Source: an uncultured Opitutia bacterium
Lineage (GTDB): Bacteria > Verrucomicrobiota > Verrucomicrobiia > Opitutales > UBA953
NCBI GenBank assembly: GCA_903855995.1
Contig: CAIOAN010000012.1
Span: forward strand, 310,001 to 374,000
Direction: 5' to 3'
DNA length: 64,000 nucleotides
Part shown: positions 20,255 to 34,653 of the stretch, piece after piece
Layout: each line of letters begins with the position of its first letter
Numbering within the stretch: position 1 is the stretch's first letter
Notes under the pieces: model-generated
What the model was told of the DNA's origin: nothing
The model's input: only the letters and a program-made list of their open reading frames with translations
Databases searched by the model: none
Program-made: the position numbers and the translations under genes

Positions 20255-22003
20255 TTAGTCGAGGCTTCGGGAGCGAGCGGCGAAAAGGCCGGAGGGACGC
20301 CACTGCAGGAAGAGGATGATGGCGCAGAGCACCAAGATCTTGCCGAAGACGGCCGAGTCCTGGGCGAGGTTCTGCAAGCCGCCGCCGATAAAGGGCACAT
20401 TAGCGAAGATGCCGGCGACCGTCGGAGAATACTGCTGCGTGAACTGGTCAAATGTGCCGATACCGAGTCCGCTGATGACCGTGCCGACGAGGTCGCCCAC
20501 GCCGCCGACGACTACCACCATGAAACTGTCGACTACGTAGGACTGCCCGAGCGCCGGTCCGACGTTGCCGATCTGACTAAGGAACGCGCCCGCCAATCCC
20601 GCCAGACCGCTGCCCAGCGCGAAGGTCAGCATATTGACGCGCTCCGTGCGCACTCCCATACAGGCGGCCATCGACCGGTTCTGCGTGACGCTGCGGATGA
20701 GCAGGCCAACGGAAGTCCGGGAGAGCACCAACCAGACACCGATCACAATGAGCGTCGCGAAACCGATCACGAAGACACGGTTCCAGCCGAGCAAGACGTC
20801 TCCCACAATCCAGTTGCCGCTGAGATAGGCCGGGCTCCCGACTTGCACGTTGTTAGCACCGAAGGTCAGCTTAAGAATCTGCTGGAGCAGAAGGGAGACG
20901 CCCCAGGTGGCGAGTAGGCTTTCCAGCGGACGACGGTATAGAAAACGAATCACGCCGCGTTCGAGCAGGACGCCGGCGGCCGCGGCCGCGAGAAAACTCA
21001 GCGGCAGGGCGAAGAGAAAGTAAGATTCACGCCACCAGCCCGTGGTGTGCATCCCGGGGATATTCAGCGAAAAACCGAAAGGGGAAAGCGCGAGTCCGTT
21101 GGCGAAGACGTTCTGCACGACATAGGTCGTGTAGGCGCCGATGGCGATCATCTCGCCGTGCGCCATGTTGATGACCCCCATCAATCCGAAGGTGATCGCA
21201 AGGCCCAGGGCCACGATGACCAGAATGCTCCCGAGGCTGAGGCTGCGGAACAACGTTCCCCCGAAGTCGACCGCGACCCGGTGGCGTTCCACGGCGAGCA
21301 AAGCCGTCCGCGCGGCATCGACTAACCGTGGATCTTTAAGAACGGCCGGGTCCTTCTGCATCGTCTTGATGAAGTCAGTGCTGGCGAGCGACTGCAGCGA
21401 CTCGAGTTCACGCAAGGCCGCAAGTTTGACCTCGGCGTCCGGAGATTTCAGCCGCACGAGGGCCAGCGCTTCGCGAAGGGCTTTCACCACGGCGGGATCA
21501 GTCTCCAGGGGCAACCGGCGCTCTAGAGCAGGTAATTTTTCCGCCTGCTGACCCTGCCCGATGGCCGCCAGTGCGCTGAGTTTCTTGGCCCGGTCAGGCG
21601 AGGAAAGTGCCGTGAGGTCCAAGACGGCCTTCATGACTCGCCGGAGATTAGCCGAGTGACCGGCGGCGTTGAGATTATCGCCGACTAAGCGGAGCCCGAT
21701 GGACTTACCGGTAGCCACCGAGATCGCCTCCTGCGCGCCTTTGGCATCTTTAGGTCCTTCCAGTAGGACTGGGATTGCGGCAGCACCCGCAGGCTCGTGC
21801 AGGTAGAGCCGGTCTTTCCGCCAGGCATCAAATAGAGGCAGAATCGAGTCATCAGCCCGGCCCATCAGCTCGTTTAGAATTTCGCCCTGATTCTTTTCGG
21901 ACTTGGCGATGGCGGCGCGGGCAATGCACTCGCGGGCCTCTTCCGCTATCAGCGATGAGAAAAGGCTGAGAAAGGCCGTAATGATGAAGAGTTTCTTTCG
22001 CAC
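20255..22003 (-). CDS. urtB: Urea ABC transporter permease UrtB with long N-terminal domain
   Basis: A 582-residue permease. A signal peptide (about residues 1-20) is followed by a roughly 230-residue soluble, helical, probably periplasmic domain, then a LivH-like membrane domain from about residue 255 (GLAITFGLMGVINMAHGEMI). The VVVGGVGDLVGTVISGLGIG segment is the usual C-terminal landmark. The N-terminal extension is characteristic of UrtB rather than LivH and supports urea as substrate. A 98-base gap with a hairpin separates it from urtA. Confidence 0.94.
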   Translation of the reverse strand: MRKKLFIITAFLSLFSSLIAEEARECIARAAIAKSEKNQGEILNELMGRADDSILPLFDAWRKDRLYLHEPAGAAAIPVLLEGPKDAKGAQEAISVATGKSIGLRLVGDNLNAAGHSANLRRVMKAVLDLTALSSPDRAKKLSALAAIGQGQQAEKLPALERRLPLETDPAVVKALREALALVRLKSPDAEVKLAALRELESLQSLASTDFIKTMQKDPAVLKDPRLVDAARTALLAVERHRVAVDFGGTLFRSLSLGSILVIVALGLAITFGLMGVINMAHGEMIAIGAYTTYVVQNVFANGLALSPFGFSLNIPGMHTTGWWRESYFLFALPLSFLAAAAAGVLLERGVIRFLYRRPLESLLATWGVSLLLQQILKLTFGANNVQVGSPAYLSGNWIVGDVLLGWNRVFVIGFATLIVIGVWLVLSRTSVGLLIRSVTQNRSMAACMGVRTERVNMLTFALGSGLAGLAGAFLSQIGNVGPALGQSYVVDSFMVVVVGGVGDLVGTVISGLGIGTFDQFTQQYSPTVAGIFANVPFIGGGLQNLAQDSAVFGKILVLCAIILFLQWRPSGLFAARSRSLD

Positions 22004-22039
22004 CGTGATTACTAGTGAGCAACTACCGTGCCAAAGGAA

Positions 22040-22067
22040 GAGGGCGGACCCCCTCAGGTCCGCCCTC
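22040..22067 (-). promoter_or_regulatory. GC-rich hairpin between urtA and urtB
   Basis: An 11-bp perfect stem (22040-22050 with 22057-22067) with a 6-base loop lies just after urtA. On the minus strand it is followed by TTCCTTT, a weak T-rich tract. It may act as a partial terminator or 3' mRNA protector so that the binding protein is made in excess over the membrane parts, as is common in ABC operons. Confidence 0.65.
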
Positions 22068-22101
22068 GCTATGAAGCACCGACGACTGACAAATATTCGG
22101 C

Positions 22102-23361
22102 TTACTTGAACTTACCTTTGAGCCAGGGCTCGCCGTAGACGTTATCGAAGGCCTTCAGGATCTTGAACTGACCGTCGGCCTTGGTTTCGCCGATGAACAC
22201 GTTCTTGGTGAGGTGCATGTTCGGCTGGGTCGTGACCTTACCGCCCGGGCCGTCGAAGGAGACACCGGACTTCCAAGCCTCGCGCACCTTATCCACATCG
22301 AAGGAGCCGGCCTTCTCGACGCACGCCTTCCAGAGGTAGACGCCGTCGTAGGAGAGCACCATCGGGGAGCAGGTCACGCGGCCGTCCTTAACGATACCGG
22401 GCACCGTGCTCTTACCGAGCCAGGCCTGGAAGTCGGCCACGAACTTCGTGTTGGCGGGGGACTTCAGCGTCTGGAAGTAAGTCCAGCAGCCGAGCTGTCC
22501 GACCAACTTGTCGGCGGGCAGTCCACGGAACTCGTCTTCGGAGATCGAGAACGAAACCACCGGGCAGGTCTCAGCCGTCAGGCCCGACGCAGCGTACTCC
22601 TTGAAGAAGGGCACGTTCGTGTCGCCATTCAGCGTACTGACGACGGCGGCCGAACCACCCGCGGAGAACTGCTTGATTTCAGCGACAATCTGCTGGTAGT
22701 CCGTGTGGCCGAAGGGCGTGTACTTACCTGCCGAGATGATCTTGCCGGAAGCATCCTTGCGGAAGCCGCCGCCAATGTTCTCGAGCGGGACGCCCTTGCT
22801 CAGGAGATACTCGAGGAGCACCAGGTTGGTGGTCTGCGGGTAGACGTAGTCGGAGCCCAGGAGGTAGAACTTCTTGACGCCCTGCGCGAGGAGGTAGTCG
22901 ACCGCAGGGGTAGCCTGCTGATTGACCGCTTCCGCGGTATAGGCGACATTCTTAGACTCTTCTTCTCCCTCGTACTGGACGGGGTAGAAGAGGAGGCCGT
23001 TGTTCTTCTCGTAGACCGGGAGGACAGACTTGCGGGACACGGAGGTCCAGCAGCCGAACGTCACGGCGACCTTGTCCTGTTCCAGCAGCTGCTTCGCCTT
23101 TTCAGCGAAGAGCGGCCAGTTCGAGGCGCCGTCGACGACGACTGGCTCGATCTTCTTGCCGAGCACGCCACCCTTGGCGTTGATCTCGTCGAAGGTGAAC
23201 AGCAGGACGTCGCGGAGGGAGGTCTCCGAGATCGCCATCGTTCCCGATAGCGAGTGGAGGACGCCAACCTTGACGGTTTCTTCCGCCCGGGCGGGCGAAA
23301 CGAGGGAGGCCAGGGCAAGAGCCCCGACAGAGAGCAGACTGGCGATTCGTGTGGTTGACAT
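22102..23361 (-). CDS. urtA: Urea ABC transporter substrate-binding protein UrtA
   Basis: A 419-residue periplasmic binding protein. A Sec signal peptide ends about residue 26 ([13 protein letters not shown]). The mature part starts [17 protein letters not shown] and contains [16 protein letters not shown] and [12 protein letters not shown], typical of the amide/urea-binding branch (UrtA/AmiC-like/FmdD). It is the second gene of the operon, 30 bases after the porin. Confidence 0.96.
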
Positions 23362-23391
23362 GGTGGGAAGCTGGGCGGCGAAGTCCTCCGC

Positions 23392-24306
23392 TTAGAACTT
23401 GAAGATGCTCTGCGCCGCCAGGTAGGTGGAGGAGGGCGTCGCGCCGTGGGAGGAGATGTAGGAGACTTCGGCGCGGACGATGAAGTGGTCGTTCACCGAG
23501 TAGCTCGGCGAAAGGGTGTACTTCATGTTGCTGCTGCCGCCGGTCGGGAGATCCTCGCTGATACGCGAAGTGAGGGACCACTTGGCGTTGAGGCCTTTGG
23601 TGTAGGCCAGGAGCCATTCGGTGCCGACACTCTCAACCTTGATGACTTCCGCGCCGATTGAGTCAGTCTTGCTGAGCGCATAGCTGGCCCAGAGGTCATA
23701 GAAGACGGTCTTGGTGGCCACGTCGTCAGCTACGCCGAACCAGATCGTCGTGTCCTTGATACCCTTATAGGTATAGTAGGCCTCGAGACCGGGCTTCTTA
23801 AGGTCGCCGTCACCCTTGTAGGCGTCAGCGCCGTAAAGGGAATCAACAAGCGCAAACCCGGCACCGTAAGTGGCGGTGGAGTAGTCGATCTTCACGCCGC
23901 TGTGATAGGCGGGAACGGGGTTAAACTGCGTGTAGGCGTAAGAAACCTGTGCCATATTCGGAACATCGAAGGCCTCGTAGCCCATGTAAGAGAGGAATTT
24001 CCCGGCCGTGACCGTGAGGCCGCCACCGACATCGACGGTGAAGTAGGCATCCAGCAAGTCGGTCTTGGAGCCGCCGTAATACAGGCTGGCGTAGCCGGTG
24101 ACGTTACCGAACTTGCCGGTAGCGCCGAACTTGGCGGCCGTCAGTCCCATCGTGCTCGTGGAAGAGCCGGTGGTCGAGGTGTAGTCGGCCGTGGCCACCG
24201 CGTAACCGTCGAACGTCACCGCGGGGGCGGGAGCGTCAGCGGCCTGAGCGGCGATCGAGGAAGCAGCGGCGAGGAACGCTACTGCGAGTTTGGTGTGGGT
24301 CTTCAT
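23392..24306 (-). CDS. Outer-membrane porin-like beta-barrel protein heading the urea operon
   Basis: A 304-residue protein with a clear signal peptide (MKTHTKLAVAFLAAASSIAAQA) and alternating, aromatic-rich strands ending in a C-terminal Phe (SIFKF), as outer-membrane barrels do. It resembles the small porins of the BBP2/OmpL-like group. As first gene of the urea operon it probably lets urea, or urea and short amides, into the periplasm for UrtA. The start at 24306 is chosen because it begins the signal peptide; an upstream in-frame Met would add 13 polar residues. No good Shine-Dalgarno is seen before it. Confidence 0.82.
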   Translation of the reverse strand: MKTHTKLAVAFLAAASSIAAQAADAPAPAVTFDGYAVATADYTSTTGSSTSTMGLTAAKFGATGKFGNVTGYASLYYGGSKTDLLDAYFTVDVGGGLTVTAGKFLSYMGYEAFDVPNMAQVSYAYTQFNPVPAYHSGVKIDYSTATYGAGFALVDSLYGADAYKGDGDLKKPGLEAYYTYKGIKDTTIWFGVADDVATKTVFYDLWASYALSKTDSIGAEVIKVESVGTEWLLAYTKGLNAKWSLTSRISEDLPTGGSSNMKYTLSPSYSVNDHFIVRAEVSYISSHGATPSSTYLAAQSIFKF

Positions 24307-24347
24307 GTTGGTAGTTATGGTTGGATGCTTGGTAGCGAGACCCATTG

Positions 24348-25604: not shown

Positions 25605-26126
25605 ATGTCCGCCGGTGCCGCCCTCCCCTTCAAAATCAGCGTCCTCGTCTTCATGCATGACGAGGCCGGACGTCTCCTGCTCATCCAACGCACCAAGGCC
25701 CCCAACATCGGCTGCTGGAGCCCCATCGGTGGCAAGCTTGAGATGGCCACGGGCGAATCCCCTTTCGAATGCGCTGTCCGTGAAACCGAAGAAGAGACCG
25801 GCGTGAAAGTGATGACTTCCGACCTTCACCTCTTCGGGATGATCTCCGAGAAAGGCTACGAAGGCCAGTCGCACTGGCTGATGTTCCTCTTCGACTGCCG
25901 CAAGCCGCTCAAGGGCCTCCCGCAGACCATCGACGAAGGGAAGTTTGGTTTCTTCGCCCGCGAAGAATTGGACCGCACCGCGATCCCGGAGACCGATCGC
26001 ACCCTGCTCTGGCCCGTCTACGATGAACACCGCCGCGGGTTCATCTCTTACCGGGCAGAATGTCATCCCGGGGCGCCGCTCAAGATGATCATCGAGGAGA
26101 CCCGCAAACTTCCCAACCTAGACTGA
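25605..26126 (+). CDS. Nudix hydrolase
   Basis: A 173-residue MutT-like protein. The Nudix box is GGKLEMATGE followed by seven residues and RETEEETGV; there are two more residues than usual between the Gly and the first Glu, but all catalytic Glu/Arg positions are present. An AAGGGTGG ribosome-binding sequence precedes the ATG at 25605; an earlier in-frame start overlaps the previous gene. Substrate unknown: nucleotide pools or ADP-ribose-like compounds. It lies 2 bases before the kinase-like gene, so they are probably co-expressed. Confidence 0.88.
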   Translation: MSAGAALPFKISVLVFMHDEAGRLLLIQRTKAPNIGCWSPIGGKLEMATGESPFECAVRETEEETGVKVMTSDLHLFGMISEKGYEGQSHWLMFLFDCRKPLKGLPQTIDEGKFGFFAREELDRTAIPETDRTLLWPVYDEHRRGFISYRAECHPGAPLKMIIEETRKLPNLD

Positions 26127-26128
26127 CG

Positions 26129-27181
26129 ATGGATGCCGCCGGATCTGCCGCCGAATTCAAGCGCACCAATCGCAAGCCTGCGTATCCAATTGGCGCTGAC
26201 CTCCGCGCCTATCTTTCTCGCGAAGGCCGCGAAGTACCCCTGCCCGTGACCTACGCCGAGCTCAGGAACTTCACCGCGGCGATGCCCCTGCTCGAACGGG
26301 GTAAAGATACCCTCTGGGAGACCGTCGCCTACGCGCACGAGGAGATGGACCGGCTTTCCCAGGGCCTACTCGAGACTTACGCACTGCTCCGCGGGGAAGG
26401 GGGAATGAAAGTCTTCAGTCACGTCTACGTCGACCGCGTGGATTTCTGCTCTTTTGGCAACTCCCAGCCGTTCCGGGTGCGCATCGTCAACGCCTACAAC
26501 GAGAATCACGACTATTTCTATGTGAAAATCGGCGATGCCTCGCGCGTCTGTGGACTCGAACTGGAGCACCTACTCTCGCCGAACCGTATGCTCTACCTCA
26601 CCTGGGGTGAGACGCTCGTCGAAGAACACGTCACCGGTATCCCCGGCGATATTTTTGCCGAGAAATGGCTCGATGCGGACGGTCACCACCCGGTGCGTCT
26701 CGCCAAAGAACTGATCAAGTTCGAAGAGCGCTGCCTGGTGCGCCTGCTGGGCGACATGCGGGCCTATAACTTCGTCATCGCGGTCACGCCGGACTTCGAC
26801 GCCACCGCCATCCGCGTCCGTGCCATGGATTTTGACCAGCAGAGCTACGACGGGCGGCTTCGCTTCTACCTACCAGGCTCTTTTAAGGAAAACCGCCCGT
26901 TCACCCAGCTTTGTGCCAAACACATCAACGCCGCCTCCGCCGCCCAGTATCGCCGCGAAGAACAGTCGCTGATCCACCGCCGGCACCTGGCCGCACCCGA
27001 TCGCGTGAAGGACCTGCTGGCCGCCATGCGGTCCAACCCCCTCACCTCCCCTGAAAAAGCCCGAGAACTCGCCGATGGTCTGGCCGAATATCACCGGGAC
27101 CCCGCTTTCCGGCAGCATGTCGATATGGCCGGCCTGATCGGCGAAAGCCTCTCCCGCCTAGACCGGGTTTTGCGCTCTTAA
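26129..27181 (+). CDS. Unrecognised protein with kinase-like motif order
   Basis: A 350-residue cytoplasmic protein I cannot place in a named family. Its central region shows the order expected of a kinase-like fold: Lys133 (YFYVKIG) as candidate beta-3 lysine, Glu144/Glu146 (LELEHLL), a hinge-like ETLVEEHVTGIP (161-172), Asp209-x4-Asn214 (GDMRAYNFV) as a catalytic-loop match, and Asp234-Phe-Asp236 (AMDFDQQ) at the DFG position. A glycine loop is not obvious. It starts 2 bases after the Nudix stop. It could be a small-molecule or protein kinase, a HipA-like relative, or a pseudokinase. Start 26129 chosen because the longer frame overlaps the Nudix gene. Confidence 0.75.
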   Translation: MDAAGSAAEFKRTNRKPAYPIGADLRAYLSREGREVPLPVTYAELRNFTAAMPLLERGKDTLWETVAYAHEEMDRLSQGLLETYALLRGEGGMKVFSHVYVDRVDFCSFGNSQPFRVRIVNAYNENHDYFYVKIGDASRVCGLELEHLLSPNRMLYLTWGETLVEEHVTGIPGDIFAEKWLDADGHHPVRLAKELIKFEERCLVRLLGDMRAYNFVIAVTPDFDATAIRVRAMDFDQQSYDGRLRFYLPGSFKENRPFTQLCAKHINAASAAQYRREEQSLIHRRHLAAPDRVKDLLAAMRSNPLTSPEKARELADGLAEYHRDPAFRQHVDMAGLIGESLSRLDRVLRS

Positions 27182-27233: not shown

Positions 27234-29147
27234 ATGAGCGACTCTTTAAGGCACGAATGCGGCATTGCCCTTGTCCGACTGACCAAGGACCTGAAGTGGT
27301 ATCAGGAAAAATACGGCACCCCGCTCCACGGCTTCAACCAGCTCTTCCTCCTGATGGAGAAGCAGCACAACCGCGGCCAGGACGGCGCGGGAATTGGTTG
27401 CGTGAAGATTGGGGCCGAGAACGGCGAGGCGTTCCTCTTTCGCGACCGGGAAATCGGCGCCCAGGGCCTGACCCAGATCTTCACGCGCCAGATCAAGACC
27501 TACGCCGACAAACTCCGCGAAGGCGTGGTCGTCCCGGAATTTCCGGAAACAGTTAAGCGTCATTTCGACTTCGGGGGCGAACTCCTGCTCGGTCACCTGC
27601 GCTACGGCACCTCGGGCACCTTTGATTCGGTCTCCTGCCATCCTTACGCCCGTAAGTCCATCTGGCCCACCCGCAACCTACTCGTCGCCGGCAACTTCAA
27701 CCTGACGAATACCGGCGAGCTCAACGCCTCGCTCACCGAGCGCGGCGCCCACGTCATCTACTCGACCGACACCCAGTCCATCCTCGAGGAGATCGGCTTC
27801 TGGCTCGACGAAGAACACGACCGCCTTTTCAAGGCCTTCAAGGACCAGGGTCTCGAAGGCGCCGCGGTGCAAACGGAGATCTCGAAGCACATGGACGTCG
27901 GCAATGTCCTGCGCCGAGCCGCCAAAAACTGGGACGGCGGCTACGCCATCGCCGGCCTCATCGGTAACGGCGACAGCTTTGTCATCCGCGATCCGAACGG
28001 CATCCGCCCTTGCTGGTATGTCCGCACCGAAGACCTCGTCGCCGTCGCCTCCGAACGCGTCGCTCTCATGACCATCGTCGGCGTCAATCAGGAGGATGTC
28101 CATGAACTGCCTCCTGGCTGCGCCTTGATCATCAAGGCCGACGGACGACATAGCATCGAATCCGTGCACGCCCCGGCCGAGCGCCGCCACTGCTCCTTCG
28201 AACGCATCTACTTCTCCCGCGGTAACGACCCGGAAATCTATGCCGAACGCAAGGCCTTGGGCGCCGCCCTCGCCGATGACGTCATCGCACAGATCCGCGA
28301 CGATCACGACAGCGCGGTCTTCTCCTACATCCCGAACACGGCCGAGATCGCGTGGTACGGCCTCATGGAGGAACTCCGCAAACGCCGCCGTACACAGGTT
28401 CGCGACCGACTCGTCGACGCCCAGCGCGCCGGCAAGCTGGACGAAGCGATGATCGATAAACTCGTGCTCGGCGGCTGGCCGCGCGGCGAAAAGGTCGCGC
28501 ATAAGGACGTCAAACTCCGCACCTTCATCTCGCAGGAGAAGAACCGCATGCAGATGGCCTCGCACGTCTACGACATCTCCTACGGTACCGTCCGCGAAGG
28601 CGACACCTTGGTCTGCGTCGACGATTCCATCGTGCGCGGCACCACGCTCCGTCAGTCCATCCTGCGCATCCTTGCGCGCCCGAACCCGAAGCGCATCGTG
28701 ATTGCCTCCACCGCCCCGCAGATCCGCTACCCAGATTGCTACGGCATCGACATGTCCGAGATGGGCAAGTTCCTCGCGTTCCAGGCGACCGTCGCCCTCT
28801 GCAAAGATCGCGGCATGGGCGAACTTCTCCGCGAAGTCTACGAAGACTGCGTGGCTCAGTCGAAGCGCCCGACACGCGATATGAAGAATCACGTGAAGCG
28901 TCTCTACGATGCTTTCACCGACGTGGAAATCGCCGCCAAGGCCGCGGAGCTCGTCTACCCGACCAAGTGCGCCTGGAAGGGCGAACTGGTGCTAGTCTTC
29001 CAGAAAATCGGCGCCCTGCACAAGGCCTGCCCTACGAGCCAGGGAGATTGGTATTTCACCGGGAACTACCCGACGCCGGGAGGGCTCGGCGTGCTCAACC
29101 AGGCTTACATCAACTACTGGGAAAAGCGCGAAGGCCGCTCCTACTAA
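27234..29147 (+). CDS. purF: Long-form glutamine amidophosphoribosyltransferase
   Basis: A 637-residue enzyme for the first step of purine synthesis (PRPP + glutamine to phosphoribosylamine). The Ntn-hydrolase glutaminase begins at Cys9 (HECGIAL), so eight residues must be removed as a propeptide. HNRGQDGAGIG and GHLRYGTSG are glutaminase landmarks; the PRPP loop is LVCVDDSIVRGTT. It is about 130 residues longer than E. coli PurF, with insertions between the domains and a C-terminal extension, a long form I associate with Bacteroidetes and Verrucomicrobia. A second, standard PurF may exist elsewhere. It converges exactly with the NamZ-like gene. Confidence 0.9.
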   Translation: MSDSLRHECGIALVRLTKDLKWYQEKYGTPLHGFNQLFLLMEKQHNRGQDGAGIGCVKIGAENGEAFLFRDREIGAQGLTQIFTRQIKTYADKLREGVVVPEFPETVKRHFDFGGELLLGHLRYGTSGTFDSVSCHPYARKSIWPTRNLLVAGNFNLTNTGELNASLTERGAHVIYSTDTQSILEEIGFWLDEEHDRLFKAFKDQGLEGAAVQTEISKHMDVGNVLRRAAKNWDGGYAIAGLIGNGDSFVIRDPNGIRPCWYVRTEDLVAVASERVALMTIVGVNQEDVHELPPGCALIIKADGRHSIESVHAPAERRHCSFERIYFSRGNDPEIYAERKALGAALADDVIAQIRDDHDSAVFSYIPNTAEIAWYGLMEELRKRRRTQVRDRLVDAQRAGKLDEAMIDKLVLGGWPRGEKVAHKDVKLRTFISQEKNRMQMASHVYDISYGTVREGDTLVCVDDSIVRGTTLRQSILRILARPNPKRIVIASTAPQIRYPDCYGIDMSEMGKFLAFQATVALCKDRGMGELLREVYEDCVAQSKRPTRDMKNHVKRLYDAFTDVEIAAKAAELVYPTKCAWKGELVLVFQKIGALHKACPTSQGDWYFTGNYPTPGGLGVLNQAYINYWEKREGRSY

Positions 29148-30479
29148 TCAGGAGTAGAGCTTGAATGGAGCTGTGCGGGCGCGATATGCGGCCGCATCGG
29201 CTTCCCATTGAGCCATCCAGCGGGCGATATCCACCTTGGCCCCTTTGGCGCGAATATCTTCAAAGAAGGCTTCGCTCCCGACGTGCTTAATAAAAAGATC
29301 GCGCTCGTTCTTGGTGACGCGCGTAAAAGGATTGGACGGATCCCAGGCGCAGGCCTGACGCATCATATGCAGGGAGATTGCCGTGGGGTGGAGGCGCGGC
29401 CAGTCGTTCACCGTGAGGTATACGCCCTGGGTGCCATCCGCCATGAGCTTCGGCTCAAGCGTTAGGCCCGGTACGGCGTTACCAAGCGCGGCGACAATAT
29501 CCGCCGCCTTACGGCGGGAATATTTCATGAATCGGAAATGCATCGAATCGCCGAACGAATGACTGAAGTCGCCGACGATGCAGCCGAGGCCGACCATAGA
29601 GTAACCGAGCGCCGCCTGGGGGGTTGGAATACGCGGCGAGGTCGCCACCCAATTAAGGCCAGTCAGATTCCACGTCATCGACCGGCGCCAGCCGCGCATC
29701 GGGACGACTTCTAGCACCCCGCGGCGGCGCTTGGCCTCATCGAGTTCCAGCACACCAGGCGTGGCGACGGCCCAGCGGGCGATTTCACCGATGGTGAGAC
29801 CATGCATGTAGGGCGTCTCATACGCACCCACGTAACTGCGCCACTTGCGGTCGAGGAACGGACCTTCCGCTTTTTCTCCACCCAGCGGATTCGGGCGGTC
29901 GAGTACAACGACCCGAATCGGACGGTCGAGAGAGAAGCATGCCTCGATGACGTAGCGCATGCAGCTGATGTACGTATAGGAACGCGCGCCGACGTCCTGG
30001 AAGTCGATGACGATGGCGTCGAGCCCGGCGAGCATCTCCGGCGTCGGGCGACGGGTCGCGCCGTAAAGCGAATACACCGGCAGGCCTGTGCGCGCGTCCT
30101 TGGCATTCTTGATCACGACCTCGGCCGCGGCGTTACCATCGATTCCGTGTTCCGGACCAAACAACTTCACGAGTTTCACGCCCGGCGCACGCGCGAGCAC
30201 ATCGACCGTCCGCTGGCCGTTGCCATTGACGCCTGCCCGGTGCGTGACCAATCCGCAACGTAAGCCGCGCAGGGAGGCGAACCCGTCGGCTTCGAGGGTA
30301 TCAATGCCCAGCATCACGCGTCCGCGCATTGTCGAGGGCGCTGGAGCGCCAGGGGCGATATTCGCGCCGGGCGAAGGAGCACTTCCGCCGCCGGAAGAAC
30401 CGCCGCCGGAACAGCCGGAAAGAAAAGTGGCGCCGAGAGAGCCCGCGGCGGTGAGGTGAAGAAACTCGCGGCGGTCCAT
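29148..30479 (-). CDS. DUF1343/NamZ-like exo-N-acetylmuramidase, Tat lipoprotein
   Basis: A 443-residue exported protein. The N terminus has a twin-arginine motif (DRREFLHL) followed by a lipobox FLSGC, so it is probably a Tat-exported lipoprotein; a Gly/Ser/Pro-rich linker follows. The main domain is DUF1343: GLVTHRAGVNGNGQRTVDVL, FGPEHGIDG, TGLPVYSLYG, IDFQDVGARSYTYI, DRPNPLGG and HGLTIGEIA. Members (NamZ, GH171) release terminal N-acetylmuramic acid from peptidoglycan. A role in wall recycling or scavenging is likely. Start 30479 puts the twin arginines at residues 3-4. Confidence 0.88.
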   Translation of the reverse strand: MDRREFLHLTAAGSLGATFLSGCSGGGSSGGGSAPSPGANIAPGAPAPSTMRGRVMLGIDTLEADGFASLRGLRCGLVTHRAGVNGNGQRTVDVLARAPGVKLVKLFGPEHGIDGNAAAEVVIKNAKDARTGLPVYSLYGATRRPTPEMLAGLDAIVIDFQDVGARSYTYISCMRYVIEACFSLDRPIRVVVLDRPNPLGGEKAEGPFLDRKWRSYVGAYETPYMHGLTIGEIARWAVATPGVLELDEAKRRRGVLEVVPMRGWRRSMTWNLTGLNWVATSPRIPTPQAALGYSMVGLGCIVGDFSHSFGDSMHFRFMKYSRRKAADIVAALGNAVPGLTLEPKLMADGTQGVYLTVNDWPRLHPTAISLHMMRQACAWDPSNPFTRVTKNERDLFIKHVGSEAFFEDIRAKGAKVDIARWMAQWEADAAAYRARTAPFKLYS

Positions 30480-30606
30480 GGGAAGCAGGTTCGCCCATCC
30501 TCGCTTATTGGCGGAGGGGTTCAAAGTCCGAAATCAACTTTCGCTCGTGCGCGGGCCGGGCCAAATTCCGTTTGCAGAATAGGTTCCGCCCGACACCGTC
30601 AGCCTC

Positions 30607-31188
30607 ATGCGCGTCGCCCTCCTCGGCTCCGGTCGCGGCTCAAATGCCGATGCGGTCCTCCGTGCCCAGGCGGAAGGTCGGCTCGGCCAGGCCAAGGTAG
30701 TCGGCCTCTGGTGCGACGTCCCGACCTGCAAGATGCTGGAGCTGGGCCCCAAGCATGGCGTGCCAGCACGCTTCCTCGATACCGGACCATTTAAGACAAA
30801 GTTCTCGCCCGAGCGTGAACAGGCCTGGGCTGACGACCTAAAGGCCGCGAAAGTCGACCTCGTCGTCCTCGCCGGCTTCATGCGCGTCATTAAAGCCCCG
30901 CTGCTCGAGGCCTTCCCGGGCCGAATCATCAACCTCCACCCAAGCCTCCTCCCAGCCTTCCCGGGACTGGACGGCATCGGCCAGGCTTGGAGTGCCGGAG
31001 TCCCCGAGGCAGGCTGCACGGTTCACTGGGTCAACGCGGAGATCGATGGCGGCGCTCACCTCGGCCAGACCCGAGTCCGCCGTGAGCCGGGCGACACGCT
31101 CGAGTCCTTTGCGAACAAGATCCACGCCGCGGAGCACGCCCTGCTCCCCTCCGTCATCGCGCGCCTAAGCGAGACTCTGACCCGATGA
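30607..31188 (+). CDS. purN: Phosphoribosylglycinamide formyltransferase
   Basis: A 193-residue GAR transformylase using 10-formyl-tetrahydrofolate (purine step 3). GSGRGSNADAV binds phosphate. The catalytic Asn and His are in INLHPSLLPAFPG, and the catalytic Asp is in VNAEIDGG. Length is normal. It overlaps prmA by 4 bases. Confidence 0.95.
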   Translation: MRVALLGSGRGSNADAVLRAQAEGRLGQAKVVGLWCDVPTCKMLELGPKHGVPARFLDTGPFKTKFSPEREQAWADDLKAAKVDLVVLAGFMRVIKAPLLEAFPGRIINLHPSLLPAFPGLDGIGQAWSAGVPEAGCTVHWVNAEIDGGAHLGQTRVRREPGDTLESFANKIHAAEHALLPSVIARLSETLTR

Positions 31189-32072
31189 TCGAACTAAAGT
31201 GCCCCATTCACGAGGATATGGTTCAGCCGCTGGAAGACCATTTCTGCGAACTCACGCGTTCCAGCTGGATGCTTTTCCATGAAGGTCCCGGCAAGCCGCA
31301 CTTCGTCATGGGCTATTTTGAAACGAAGGCCGAATCTGACGAAGCCTGGGCGGACCTGCGTAAGGCTTTCAAGAAACTGCCGGATAAATATGAAGAGACT
31401 GTCTTGGCCGACAAGGACTGGAAAGAGGCTTACAAGGAGCACCTCAAGCCATGGGATTACGGACGTCTCCACTGGGTGCCCGCCTGGATGCGGGGCCAGC
31501 ATGCCGTCCCCGCGGATGCCGCGGTGATCTGGTTCGACGCCGGCCTGGCCTTCGGCACGGGCGACCATCCGACCACCCGTCTCTGCGCGATTCGTATGAT
31601 GGATTTCCTTGAGACCCATCCGGCCGCGAAAGTATCCGTGACCGACGCCGGCTGCGGCTCCGGCATCCTCGCCCTCTCCGCCGCCAAACTCGGGTGCGGC
31701 CGCATCGTCGGCTTCGACCGCGATCTGGAATCCGTCCGCGTCAGCATCGCCAATCGCGCCGATAACGGCATCGCCGACGAGGCCGTCGCATTCCATCACG
31801 CCGGTCTCGAGGAAGGCTTTCGCCTCACCGGCCGCGCCGACGTCGTGTTGGCCAATATCATCAGCGATGTGCTCTGCATCTACGCCGACAATCTGGTGGA
31901 CTCCGTGAGCCCCGGCGGCGTCCTCGCCCTAAGCGGCATCCTTGCCAAGGAGCAGGCTTCCGTCCGTGCCCATTTCGAAGAAAAATGCCAGGCGGCTTGG
32001 GGCGAAGGAATGAAGGCCGACGGACGCATCATGGGCGAGTGGAGCGATGTCGCTCTCTTCCGGCCGCTTTGA
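31185..32072 (+). CDS. prmA: Ribosomal protein L11 methyltransferase-like protein
   Basis: A 295-residue methyltransferase. The PrmA substrate-loop signature GLAFGTGDHPTTRLC is followed by the SAM motif DAGCGSGILALSAAKLG and VLANIISDVL (post-motif N-I-I/L). The N-terminal domain has the ADKDWKEAYKEHLKP segment typical of PrmA. It trimethylates L11 in E. coli. It is translationally coupled to purN and followed closely by a membrane-protein gene. Confidence 0.93.
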   Translation: MIELKCPIHEDMVQPLEDHFCELTRSSWMLFHEGPGKPHFVMGYFETKAESDEAWADLRKAFKKLPDKYEETVLADKDWKEAYKEHLKPWDYGRLHWVPAWMRGQHAVPADAAVIWFDAGLAFGTGDHPTTRLCAIRMMDFLETHPAAKVSVTDAGCGSGILALSAAKLGCGRIVGFDRDLESVRVSIANRADNGIADEAVAFHHAGLEEGFRLTGRADVVLANIISDVLCIYADNLVDSVSPGGVLALSGILAKEQASVRAHFEEKCQAAWGEGMKADGRIMGEWSDVALFRPL

Positions 32073-32112
32073 GCCGCTTGCTTCTCTCCCCTTTTCTTCT
32101 TCTCTTCAGCTC

Positions 32113-32565
32113 ATGCCCGAAGCCGCCGCCCTAAGTATCCGTTACGCCCGTTGGATTGCCCTGCTCTTCGGGATTCTGTGCCTAGGCCTTGGCGTCAATG
32201 AACTTGTCGGCGGCATCACGCTCGGTCCGATTCATCTTCCTCCGCGTTGGAACCCCGCCGTGGTCACCTTCCCCATGGCCCTCCGGGTCGAGTCCTGGTT
32301 CCTGATTGGCTACGCGTTCTTGCTGTTTCTCCCGTGGCGCTCACTGCGCAACCGTAGGCTCTGGAATCTATTGTTCTCCGTTCTTTGCGTGGCATCGGTG
32401 ATCTACGCATTCGCGATGATTTCCGAAGTCATGGCCAAGAATTATATCGCCCAGAATGCGCATATGAAGGCCAAGATTCCGGTGTTCCAGGCAATCCTGC
32501 TATTCCTGAGCTTGGGCCAGATTCCGCTCGAGCTCTTCAGCCGGAAACCCGAACTGCTCGACTGA
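32113..32565 (+). CDS. Small membrane protein of unknown function
   Basis: A 150-residue protein with four predicted membrane helices (around residues 14-35, 60-76, 85-105 and 118-135) and no recognisable motif. The start at 32113 is chosen because it follows the prmA stop and begins the hydrophobic part; a longer frame begins inside prmA. It converges with another small membrane-protein gene with no base between the stops. Confidence 0.65.
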   Translation: MPEAAALSIRYARWIALLFGILCLGLGVNELVGGITLGPIHLPPRWNPAVVTFPMALRVESWFLIGYAFLLFLPWRSLRNRRLWNLLFSVLCVASVIYAFAMISEVMAKNYIAQNAHMKAKIPVFQAILLFLSLGQIPLELFSRKPELLD

Positions 32566-32940
32566 TCAAAGCGCGGCGAGCAACTGGCGCCAAGGGATGA
32601 ACCAAGGCCAGACGAGGACGATCACCAGGAAAGAAATGGATATGCCTGAGGGGACCTCCGCGCGTCTTCCGTCGATGAGTCGGGGTAACGCGTACGTGAG
32701 CAGCCACACTGACTTGTAAATCACCTGGAAGACGAGCAGCCAGAGGAAGCTTCCCGGAGAGACTAGCCCGAGGACGGAACAAACGAGGATGGCGAGCCAA
32801 AGGGAGCCAACCAGCGCGCGCCAACCGGCACTTTCCACGAACGCTCCCTGATCCGTGACCGATGGCTTGAGCAACGTGGCAAAGCCGACTGGAACCAGAA
32901 TAAAGATGTTCGCCCAAAATAGAAACTGCGCCGCCGCCAT
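32566..32940 (-). CDS. Small membrane protein of unknown function
   Basis: A 124-residue protein with about four hydrophobic helices and no recognisable family motif. It lies 3 bases downstream of purK on the same strand, so it is probably in the purE-purK transcript. The short spacing suggests co-expression, but nothing links it to purine synthesis. Confidence 0.65.
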   Translation of the reverse strand: MAAAQFLFWANIFILVPVGFATLLKPSVTDQGAFVESAGWRALVGSLWLAILVCSVLGLVSPGSFLWLLVFQVIYKSVWLLTYALPRLIDGRRAEVPSGISISFLVIVLVWPWFIPWRQLLAAL

Positions 32941-32943
32941 AAA

Positions 32944-34077
32944 TCAGAGCGCAGCATGCAGCGCTTCAGCGCGGCGGATCGCTTCTTCAAGCGTCGGCGC
33001 GGTGACGGTGATATGTCCCATCTTGCGGCCCGGGGCGGCCTTGCCTTTATCGTAGAGGTGCAGCTTGGCGGAAGGGTCCGCGAGGACCTTGGTCCAGTCG
33101 GGCTCCTGGCCGTTGCGCCAGACGTCGCCGAGCAGATTGACCATAGCGGAAGGAGCGAGCGGCTTTGTACCGCCCAGCGGCAATCCGCACACCGCACGAA
33201 TATGCTGCTCGAACTGGCTGGTCTCGTTGGCGTCGAAAGTCTGGTGTCCGCTGTTATGTGGACGCGGGGCGAGCTCGTTGACGACGATGCGGCCGTTCTT
33301 TACGAACATCTCGACGGCGAGGAGGCCGACGAGCTGAATCTTCTCGGCGATGCGAAGCGCCAAGGCGCGAGCCTCCGCGGCGGTAGCCTCCGAAATGCGG
33401 GCGGGCGAGATCGAGAGATGGAGGATATGGTTACGATGGATGTTCTCCGCGGGATCATAGACGGCGGTTCGTCCGTCGACCGTCCGGGCGACGAGCACGG
33501 AAATCTCCATCTGGAAAGGCACCCAGGCTTCGAGGACGCCGACGGCGCCACCGATCTTACTCCATGCCGCGCTGAGATCCGCTTCGGCGGTCGGTAGCTT
33601 GACCTGTCCTTTGCCGTCGTAACCAAAGTCAGCCGTTTTTAACACACAGGGGAACCCGACCGTCTTCACCGCTGCCTCCAGCTCGGCAAGAGAGGAGACC
33701 ACGGCGAAGTTGGCGCACGGAATGCCAGAGGCGCGGAGGAATTCTTTTTCCCGGCGGCGATTCTGGCAGATCGCCAAGACATTCGCCGAAGGGTGGCAAG
33801 GGACAGACTTTGCAACGTACTCGACCGAAGCTGGCGGAATGTTCTCGAACTCGAGGGTGATGCGACCGCAGCCTTGGGCGAAACGCGTCAGCGCGGCGGT
33901 ATCGCTCCAGTCCGCGGTGATATGCTCGTCGGCAATCCCGGCCGCGCAGGCTCCGGGCGAAGGGTCAAAAGTGCGTACCTTGTAACCCATGCGGCGAGCG
34001 GCGATGGCTGACATCCGTCCGAGCTGGCCTCCGCCCAGAATTCCAATGGTGCCACCTGGCAGCAGCGGCGACTCCAT
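32944..34077 (-). CDS. purK: N5-carboxyaminoimidazole ribonucleotide synthase
   Basis: A 377-residue ATP-grasp enzyme that carboxylates AIR with bicarbonate. GILGGGQLGRM near the N terminus, EFENIP, DGKGQ, and the Mg/ATP site NELAPRPHNSGH are the expected motifs. It lies 3 bases after purE. Length is typical. Confidence 0.96.
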   Translation of the reverse strand: MESPLLPGGTIGILGGGQLGRMSAIAARRMGYKVRTFDPSPGACAAGIADEHITADWSDTAALTRFAQGCGRITLEFENIPPASVEYVAKSVPCHPSANVLAICQNRRREKEFLRASGIPCANFAVVSSLAELEAAVKTVGFPCVLKTADFGYDGKGQVKLPTAEADLSAAWSKIGGAVGVLEAWVPFQMEISVLVARTVDGRTAVYDPAENIHRNHILHLSISPARISEATAAEARALALRIAEKIQLVGLLAVEMFVKNGRIVVNELAPRPHNSGHQTFDANETSQFEQHIRAVCGLPLGGTKPLAPSAMVNLLGDVWRNGQEPDWTKVLADPSAKLHLYDKGKAAPGRKMGHITVTAPTLEEAIRRAEALHAAL

Positions 34078-34080
34078 GGC

Positions 34081-34602
34081 TTAACGCTTCTTGCCCTTGC
34101 GGCCAGGAACCGGGTTATCCAGTACGGCCTTGGTCTGCGCAGCGCGATACGCATCGAGCTTCTTGGCGAGCGGCGCGTCGCTCAGGGCGAGCACGGCGGC
34201 GGCGCCGAGAGCGGCGTTGATAGCTCCGGCGCGACCGATGGCGAAAGTATGCACCGGGATGCCCGCGGGCATCTGCACGATCGAGAGCAACGAGTCGATG
34301 CCGTCGAGCGCCTTTGATTGGACGGGCACGCCCATGACCGGCAGTGAGGTCATCGCCGCGACCATTCCGGGTAGATGTGCGGCCCCGCCGGCGCCGGCAA
34401 TGATCACTTGCAGACCGCGGCCGCGAGCGGCCAACGCGTAGTCCTTGAGCTTAAGCGGCGTGCGGTGCGCGCTGACGACCTCGGCTTCGAAGGCGATGCC
34501 GAGCAGCTTGAGCGTGTCCGCGGCGTTGACCATCGTCTCCCAATCCGACTGGGATCCCATGATGATGCCGACCTTCGGGGCGGATGAAAGCGCGCGTGCC
34601 AT
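34081..34602 (-). CDS. purE: N5-carboxyaminoimidazole ribonucleotide mutase
   Basis: A 173-residue class I PurE, which moves the carboxylate from N5-CAIR to give [17 protein letters not shown], the VVSAHRTP motif, and [15 protein letters not shown] with LPVMGVP are all present. The pairing with purK confirms the bacterial two-step route. Start 34602 preferred over 34620 because the six extra residues are not family-like. Confidence 0.95.
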
Positions 34603-34653
34603 GCCCGAAGCGTGCCCCACGGCGGCCCGCCTGTGAAGCCCGAAGCGAAAAAA

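Follow-up and report, generated by a model that had tools for sequence, protein, structure and literature searches.

A kinase-like protein family of Verrucomicrobiota with a predicted fold closest to PI3K/PI4K/PIKK

A 350-residue open reading frame in a 64,000-nucleotide stretch of DNA from an uncultured Opitutia bacterium (the window; source genome assembly of 2.66 Mb) raises the question of what kind of protein it encodes. The frame occupies positions 26129..27181 of the + strand; its ATG lies at 26129 and the TGA stop codon of the Nudix hydrolase gene upstream at 26124-26126, leaving a gap of two bases. The GC content by codon position (0.68/0.42/0.75) and pairwise dN/dS values of ~0.03-0.22 against eight relatives of the lineage indicate that the gene is real and subject to purifying selection. 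The window protein gave no credible match in Pfam, NCBIfam, PHROGs, PADLOC or the sequences of all PDB chains (phmmer/hmmsearch for PDB). Two family alignments, one of 43 sequences (A1) and one of 35 more diverse sequences that are at least 41% identical to the window protein (A3), likewise had no credible match in Pfam or PDB, and full-text searching of the literature turned up no description of the family. The initial annotation of this DNA had the coordinates of the frame and the two-base gap right, and its statement that the protein belongs to no nameable family is correct for the five sequence collections named above.

The residues invariant in both alignments are K133, D136, S138, R139, E144, E146, G208, D209, M210, R211, N214, D234, F235, D236 and Q237; the family consensus around them reads YVKxxDASRxxGLELE, RLLGDMRxYNFV and RxxDFDQQ. 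Upstream of these, F109-G-N-S-Q-P-F115 (26453..26473, +) is proposed to be the ATP-loop, an equivalent of the P-loop; N111 and P114 are invariant and F109, G110 and F115 are >90% conserved, and the loop joins beta strands 99-107 and 115-121 in the model (strand-loop-strand). K133-I-G-D136-A-S-R139 (26525..26545, +) would provide the ATP-binding lysine and the start of an alphaC-like helix: in the model K133 ends strand 127-134 and helix 137-149 comes next. This helix carries E144-L-E146 (26558..26566, +), where either Glu could form the salt bridge with K133. The proposed catalytic loop, G208-D209-M-R211-A-Y-N214 (26750..26770, +), connects, in the model, the long helix (188-209) with the strand pair 214-221/226-233. 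Finally, D234-F-D236-Q237 (26828..26839, +), a putative Mg-binding motif with DFD replacing DFG, opens a low-confidence activation loop at 237-251, with pLDDT <50 at 237-246 and 248-251. A loose K...E...DxxxxN...DF[DG] pattern appeared in 70 of 20,000 shuffles of the window protein; the motif alone is thus weak, and the argument is carried by conservation. Since the residues are invariant across the family and the predicted fold agrees, the kinase motif goes beyond chance.

AlphaFold2 run on an alignment headed by the window protein gave a model with pLDDT 83.4 and pTM 0.83; with an orthologue of 56% identity at the head, taken from a contig labelled Spartobacteria (L102), the values were 84.9 and 0.85. 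As the two alignments share most of their rows, the second model tests the influence of the query and is only partly independent of the first. Both models are predicted to have a two-lobed kinase fold. Their N-terminal part consists of a strand pair, a long helix, three strands (K133 ending the third, 127-134) and the helix with E144/E146; then come two strands and a hinge, a long helix with D209 at its end, two further strands that include N214 and lead up to D234, a disordered loop and six helices. In comparison with PDB, the best 50 entries by VIA Z were all PI3K, PI4K or PIKK structures, both for the window model (Z 9.6-11.1, rmsd 4.3-5.1 A, 242-269 residues) and for the L102 model (Z 9.2-10.6). 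The matches of the two models span 231-269 residues, nearly the whole model, and Z values of 9-11 are modestly higher than the 7-8 typical for models with no clear match. The best Foldseek match was Vps34 for both models (E 1.6e-4, TM-scores of the Vps34 matches 0.26-0.37), with other kinases close behind; against viral models only generic kinases and weak matches were found.

The initial annotation had suggested an undescribed kinase-like family, naming Lys133, a Glu, D209-x4-N214 and D234-F-D236 in this order. The named positions are correct (with the Glu at 144 or 146), and K133, D209, N214 and D234, as well as D236, are invariant in the 35 diverse sequences; together with the predicted kinase fold and the PI3K/PI4K/PIKK best matches this supports the suggestion, and neither a non-kinase fold nor a lack of conservation was observed. 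The features of the protein-kinase-like (PKL) superfamily, ordered invariant Lys/Glu/Asp/Asn/Asp (35 members) and a predicted two-lobed fold, are both present. Going by the modelled structures, the most fitting label for the proteins is a bacterial family with a PI3K-like fold that has not been described before, and the window protein is probably a working kinase. PI3K/PIKK is likely to be the closest branch. We think it rather likely, too, that the gene product as a whole is a soluble phosphotransferase, ATP-dependent and catalytically competent, made of a single domain whose fold is closest to PI3K/PI4K/PIKK.

The likeness to PI3K/PI4K/PIKK (PF00454; Vps34, PI4KIIIbeta, p110gamma, ATM/Tel1, mTOR) is in the predicted fold and in the order of elements, over nearly the whole model, and extends to the positions of the motifs K..D..R, GD-x-x-x-x-N and [IM]DF. 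The strict PI3K motifs are KxGDDLRQ[DE], GDRHxxN and DFG; the corresponding parts of the Vps34 sequence are FKHGDDLRQD, ILGVGDRHLDNLLL and FHIDFG. Where PI3K has KxGDDLRQ[DE], the family has KxxDASRxxGLELE, in which K, R and the first D are invariant and stand in register, and the second D and Q[DE] are absent. The catalytic loop is GDMRxxN in all members, unlike the PI3K GDRHxxN (D and N are kept, R-H becomes M-R), and the activation loop starts with an invariant DFD instead of DFG. The DRH and DFG motifs of PI3Kalpha play roles comparable to those proposed here (PMC4207468). The models also have a helix-only tail after the activation loop, resembling in position the helical tail of the PI3K superfamily; in that superfamily these helices are unrelated to the ones of ordinary protein kinases (PMC7619004). 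Unlike PI3K/PIKK, the proteins are bacterial and stand-alone, of about 340 residues, and have no C2, helical or FAT domains; a large microbial kinome survey lists the PI3K family as eukaryote-specific (PMC1821047).

The PF00454 HMM had no match to the window protein or to members of A1 and A3, nor elsewhere in the same genome. Alignment by hhalign with a PI3K/PI4K/mTOR set (A4, four sequences, the Vps34 part checked against PDB) gave a probability of 0.02%, which is not significant; unaided, the program set GDMRAYN on GDRHLDN and MDFD on IDFG, a placement with no statistical weight. Since the strict PI3K signatures, a PF00454 match and a significant profile-profile alignment are all missing, we do not file the protein as a PI3K, despite its proposed PI3K-type working. 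A side result of the PF00454 search concerned open frames of 708-1114 aa at three loci (L141, L142 and L147, in genomes G242 and G239): they match a catalytic-loop part of ~40-60 positions of this HMM, over or near the cut-off, and are possibly other, unrelated PI3K-like bacterial proteins.

The resemblance to PI3K could be convergent, or an artefact of ranking, if the fold belonged to another branch of protein-kinase-like enzymes (HipA-, SelO-, APH/CAK- or lanthipeptide-kinase-like). Foldseek does list many ordinary kinases and the kinase domains of class III lanthipeptide synthetases at E about 0.001, and outside key motifs the sequence of PI3K is not similar to that of other kinases (PMC1821047), which makes the branches hard to tell apart. 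Nevertheless, the best 50 entries by structural Z belong to PI3K/PI4K/PIKK for both models, built on different query sequences, and we regard another branch as unlikely, even if a kinase of non-PI3K type may be compatible with its absence from these lists. HipA (PF07804) is also a bacterial kinase-fold enzyme in which a catalytic Asp is followed by Asn, in a comparable D-x-H-x-x-N loop with a later Asp. Its conserved residues are different, however; nothing aligned in catalytic register in hhalign against HipA, the HipA_C HMM had no match in the same genome, no family member has any Pfam match, and there is no adjoining antitoxin gene (the genes around the kinase, for aldo-keto reductase, Nudix and PurF, do not include hipB). 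Eukaryotic-type protein kinases (Pkinase, PknB) share with the family a two-lobed fold and Lys, Glu, Asp, Asn and Asp in order; in contrast to them, the family has no Pkinase HMM match, no GxGxxG loop and no HRD, and D-x-R replaces D-x-K.

One could also suppose that the PI3K-like fold is catalytically dead, or that it serves an ATP-binding regulator which is not a kinase (a pseudokinase or, as SelO, an AMPylase). DFD in place of DFG and MR in place of RH in the catalytic loop would fit such a protein. SelO offers a precedent for an atypical active site in a kinase fold, and like the family SelO/YdiU is a widespread conserved bacterial kinase-fold protein found by remote homology; by description the two are set apart, as the classic catalytic Asp, absent in SelO, is kept here (PMC3281104). 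The DMR and DFD changes are uniform across the family and so look like family-specific variation, not decay. Pseudokinases usually lose one canonical catalytic residue, whereas here the canonical Lys, Glu, Asp, Asn and Asp, as all catalytic-type residues, are invariant in the 43 and 35 sequences, which argues against a pseudokinase, and purifying selection is strong. A dead or non-kinase protein is for these reasons improbable, and an active kinase-fold phosphotransferase is, judging from the models, very probable.

For such a phosphotransferase we infer the use of ATP, the activity and the roles of residues as follows. ATP would lie between the lobes, beneath the 109-115 loop, with its alpha and beta phosphates gripped by K133, which would be braced by E144 or E146. 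Mg2+ would be held by N214 and D234, perhaps also by D236. D209 would orient or deprotonate the acceptor hydroxyl, and R211, two residues past D209 in the position of His in PI3Ks and of Lys in protein kinases, could stabilise the transferred phosphate. The acceptor may be a protein Ser/Thr, to which we give somewhat less than an even chance, or, with a slightly smaller chance, a small metabolite; a lipid appears improbable.

To describe the spread of the family we sampled genomes of Verrucomicrobiota, and the counts of presence refer to this phylum. Of 57 near relatives, 38 have a homologue; the sample across the phylum gave 82 of 387 Verrucomicrobiota genomes with one, and the class, at E <= 0.1, gave 116 of 384 (one of them a weak match to a 26-aa frame with stops). 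The gene is present in essentially one copy per genome, the exceptions being genes broken in pieces and one short weak fragment. In the sampled Verrucomicrobiota genomes there were no paralogues and hardly any weak intermediate matches, which gives the family a sharp boundary. No homologue was found among the plasmids, phages and viral contigs searched. Among the best 80 of 275 relatives nearly all titles were verrucomicrobial, the closest named records being Opitutae/Opitutales MAGs; one contig was labelled Polynucleobacter and one only 'bacterium'. The former (CALPIW020000219.1, L088:1-3579, labelled Polynucleobacter meluiroseus) carries a 96% identical kinase followed by PurF and NamZ in the same order as in the window, and is almost certainly a mis-binned verrucomicrobial contig.

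A bolder reading, which we offer tentatively and hold to be rather unlikely, is that the family is a Verrucomicrobiota-wide, vertically inherited PI3K/PIKK branch. It would then share ancestry with the eukaryotic kinases of lipid signalling and DNA-damage signalling, as a minimal catalytic domain standing alone, and would differ from them in its catalytic motifs (DMR, DFD) and in acting on a new substrate. A bacterial family that has the PI3K fold, is strongly conserved and occurs in single copy would be a minimal model of the catalytic domain and a candidate for how the PI3K superfamily arose, and there would probably be an unrecognised phosphorylation reaction in Verrucomicrobiota. Roughly one in five of the phylum's sampled genomes carries the gene, and the family closes a gap in Pfam and NCBIfam.

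Several observations were made on individual genomes. Three of them have the kinase gene divided among two or more frames (G021:C6:117289-118342, G009:C137:578-1641 and G672:C33:104562-105572), owing either to sequencing errors or to decay of these copies. All four near-complete genomes of a sister genus in the same family, g22 (G201, G227, G355 and G659), have no kinase gene, while most of the window's genus has it, a natural loss of possible use in comparative work. Long open frames at three loci (L198-L200) resembled fusions and, by inspection, were attributed to chance read-through of upstream DNA.

In the window the gene is preceded by the Nudix hydrolase gene (25605..26126, +; 173 aa, PF00293 E=7.9e-19), a lineage-specific neighbour, and followed after 52 bases by a gene for a PurF-like amidophosphoribosyltransferase (27234..29147, +; TIGR01134 E=1.9e-37, below its cut-off). 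The latter encodes a long, divergent enzyme (637 aa, 129.7 bits versus a cut-off of 350). Within the window's genus and among its nearest relatives, aldo-keto reductase, Nudix, kinase and purF follow one another in this order with little or no exception, and the linkage of kinase and PurF is limited to this lineage. At three loci of about 62% identity (L071-L073) the Nudix gene is the only one of the window's neighbours still nearby, and no Nudix box occurs in the flanking DNA fetched for the other 54 homologous loci. The neighbours (named by inspection) are otherwise variable, with no constant partner; we dropped conserved synteny as a clue to function, since they vary. In the comparisons that yielded both rates, evolution was mostly faster in the Nudix gene than in the kinase gene.

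The initial annotation had read the adjacency as a hint at a joint role of the two proteins. The adjacency holds in the window's own lineage, with the Nudix gene nearby in L071-L073 as well, but does not extend to the other 54 loci, so a joint role is a local possibility only. A two-gene module for nucleotide signalling or nucleotide repair, with the Nudix enzyme and the kinase acting on the same compound, could be imagined from the Nudix gene a few bases upstream and PurF downstream, yet the variable neighbours, the Nudix-free flanks and the mostly faster evolution of the Nudix gene make it very unlikely.

Purine genes cluster near the kinase gene in the window (27234-34620): besides the PurF-like protein they encode PurK, PurE and a formyltransferase of the PurN type, and the genes for NamZ and PrmA are interspersed. 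On the other side, at 20255-24345 of the - strand, there is a urea-type ABC transporter (UrtA-/UrtB-like, by inspection) with a porin-2-like protein (BBP2) beside it.
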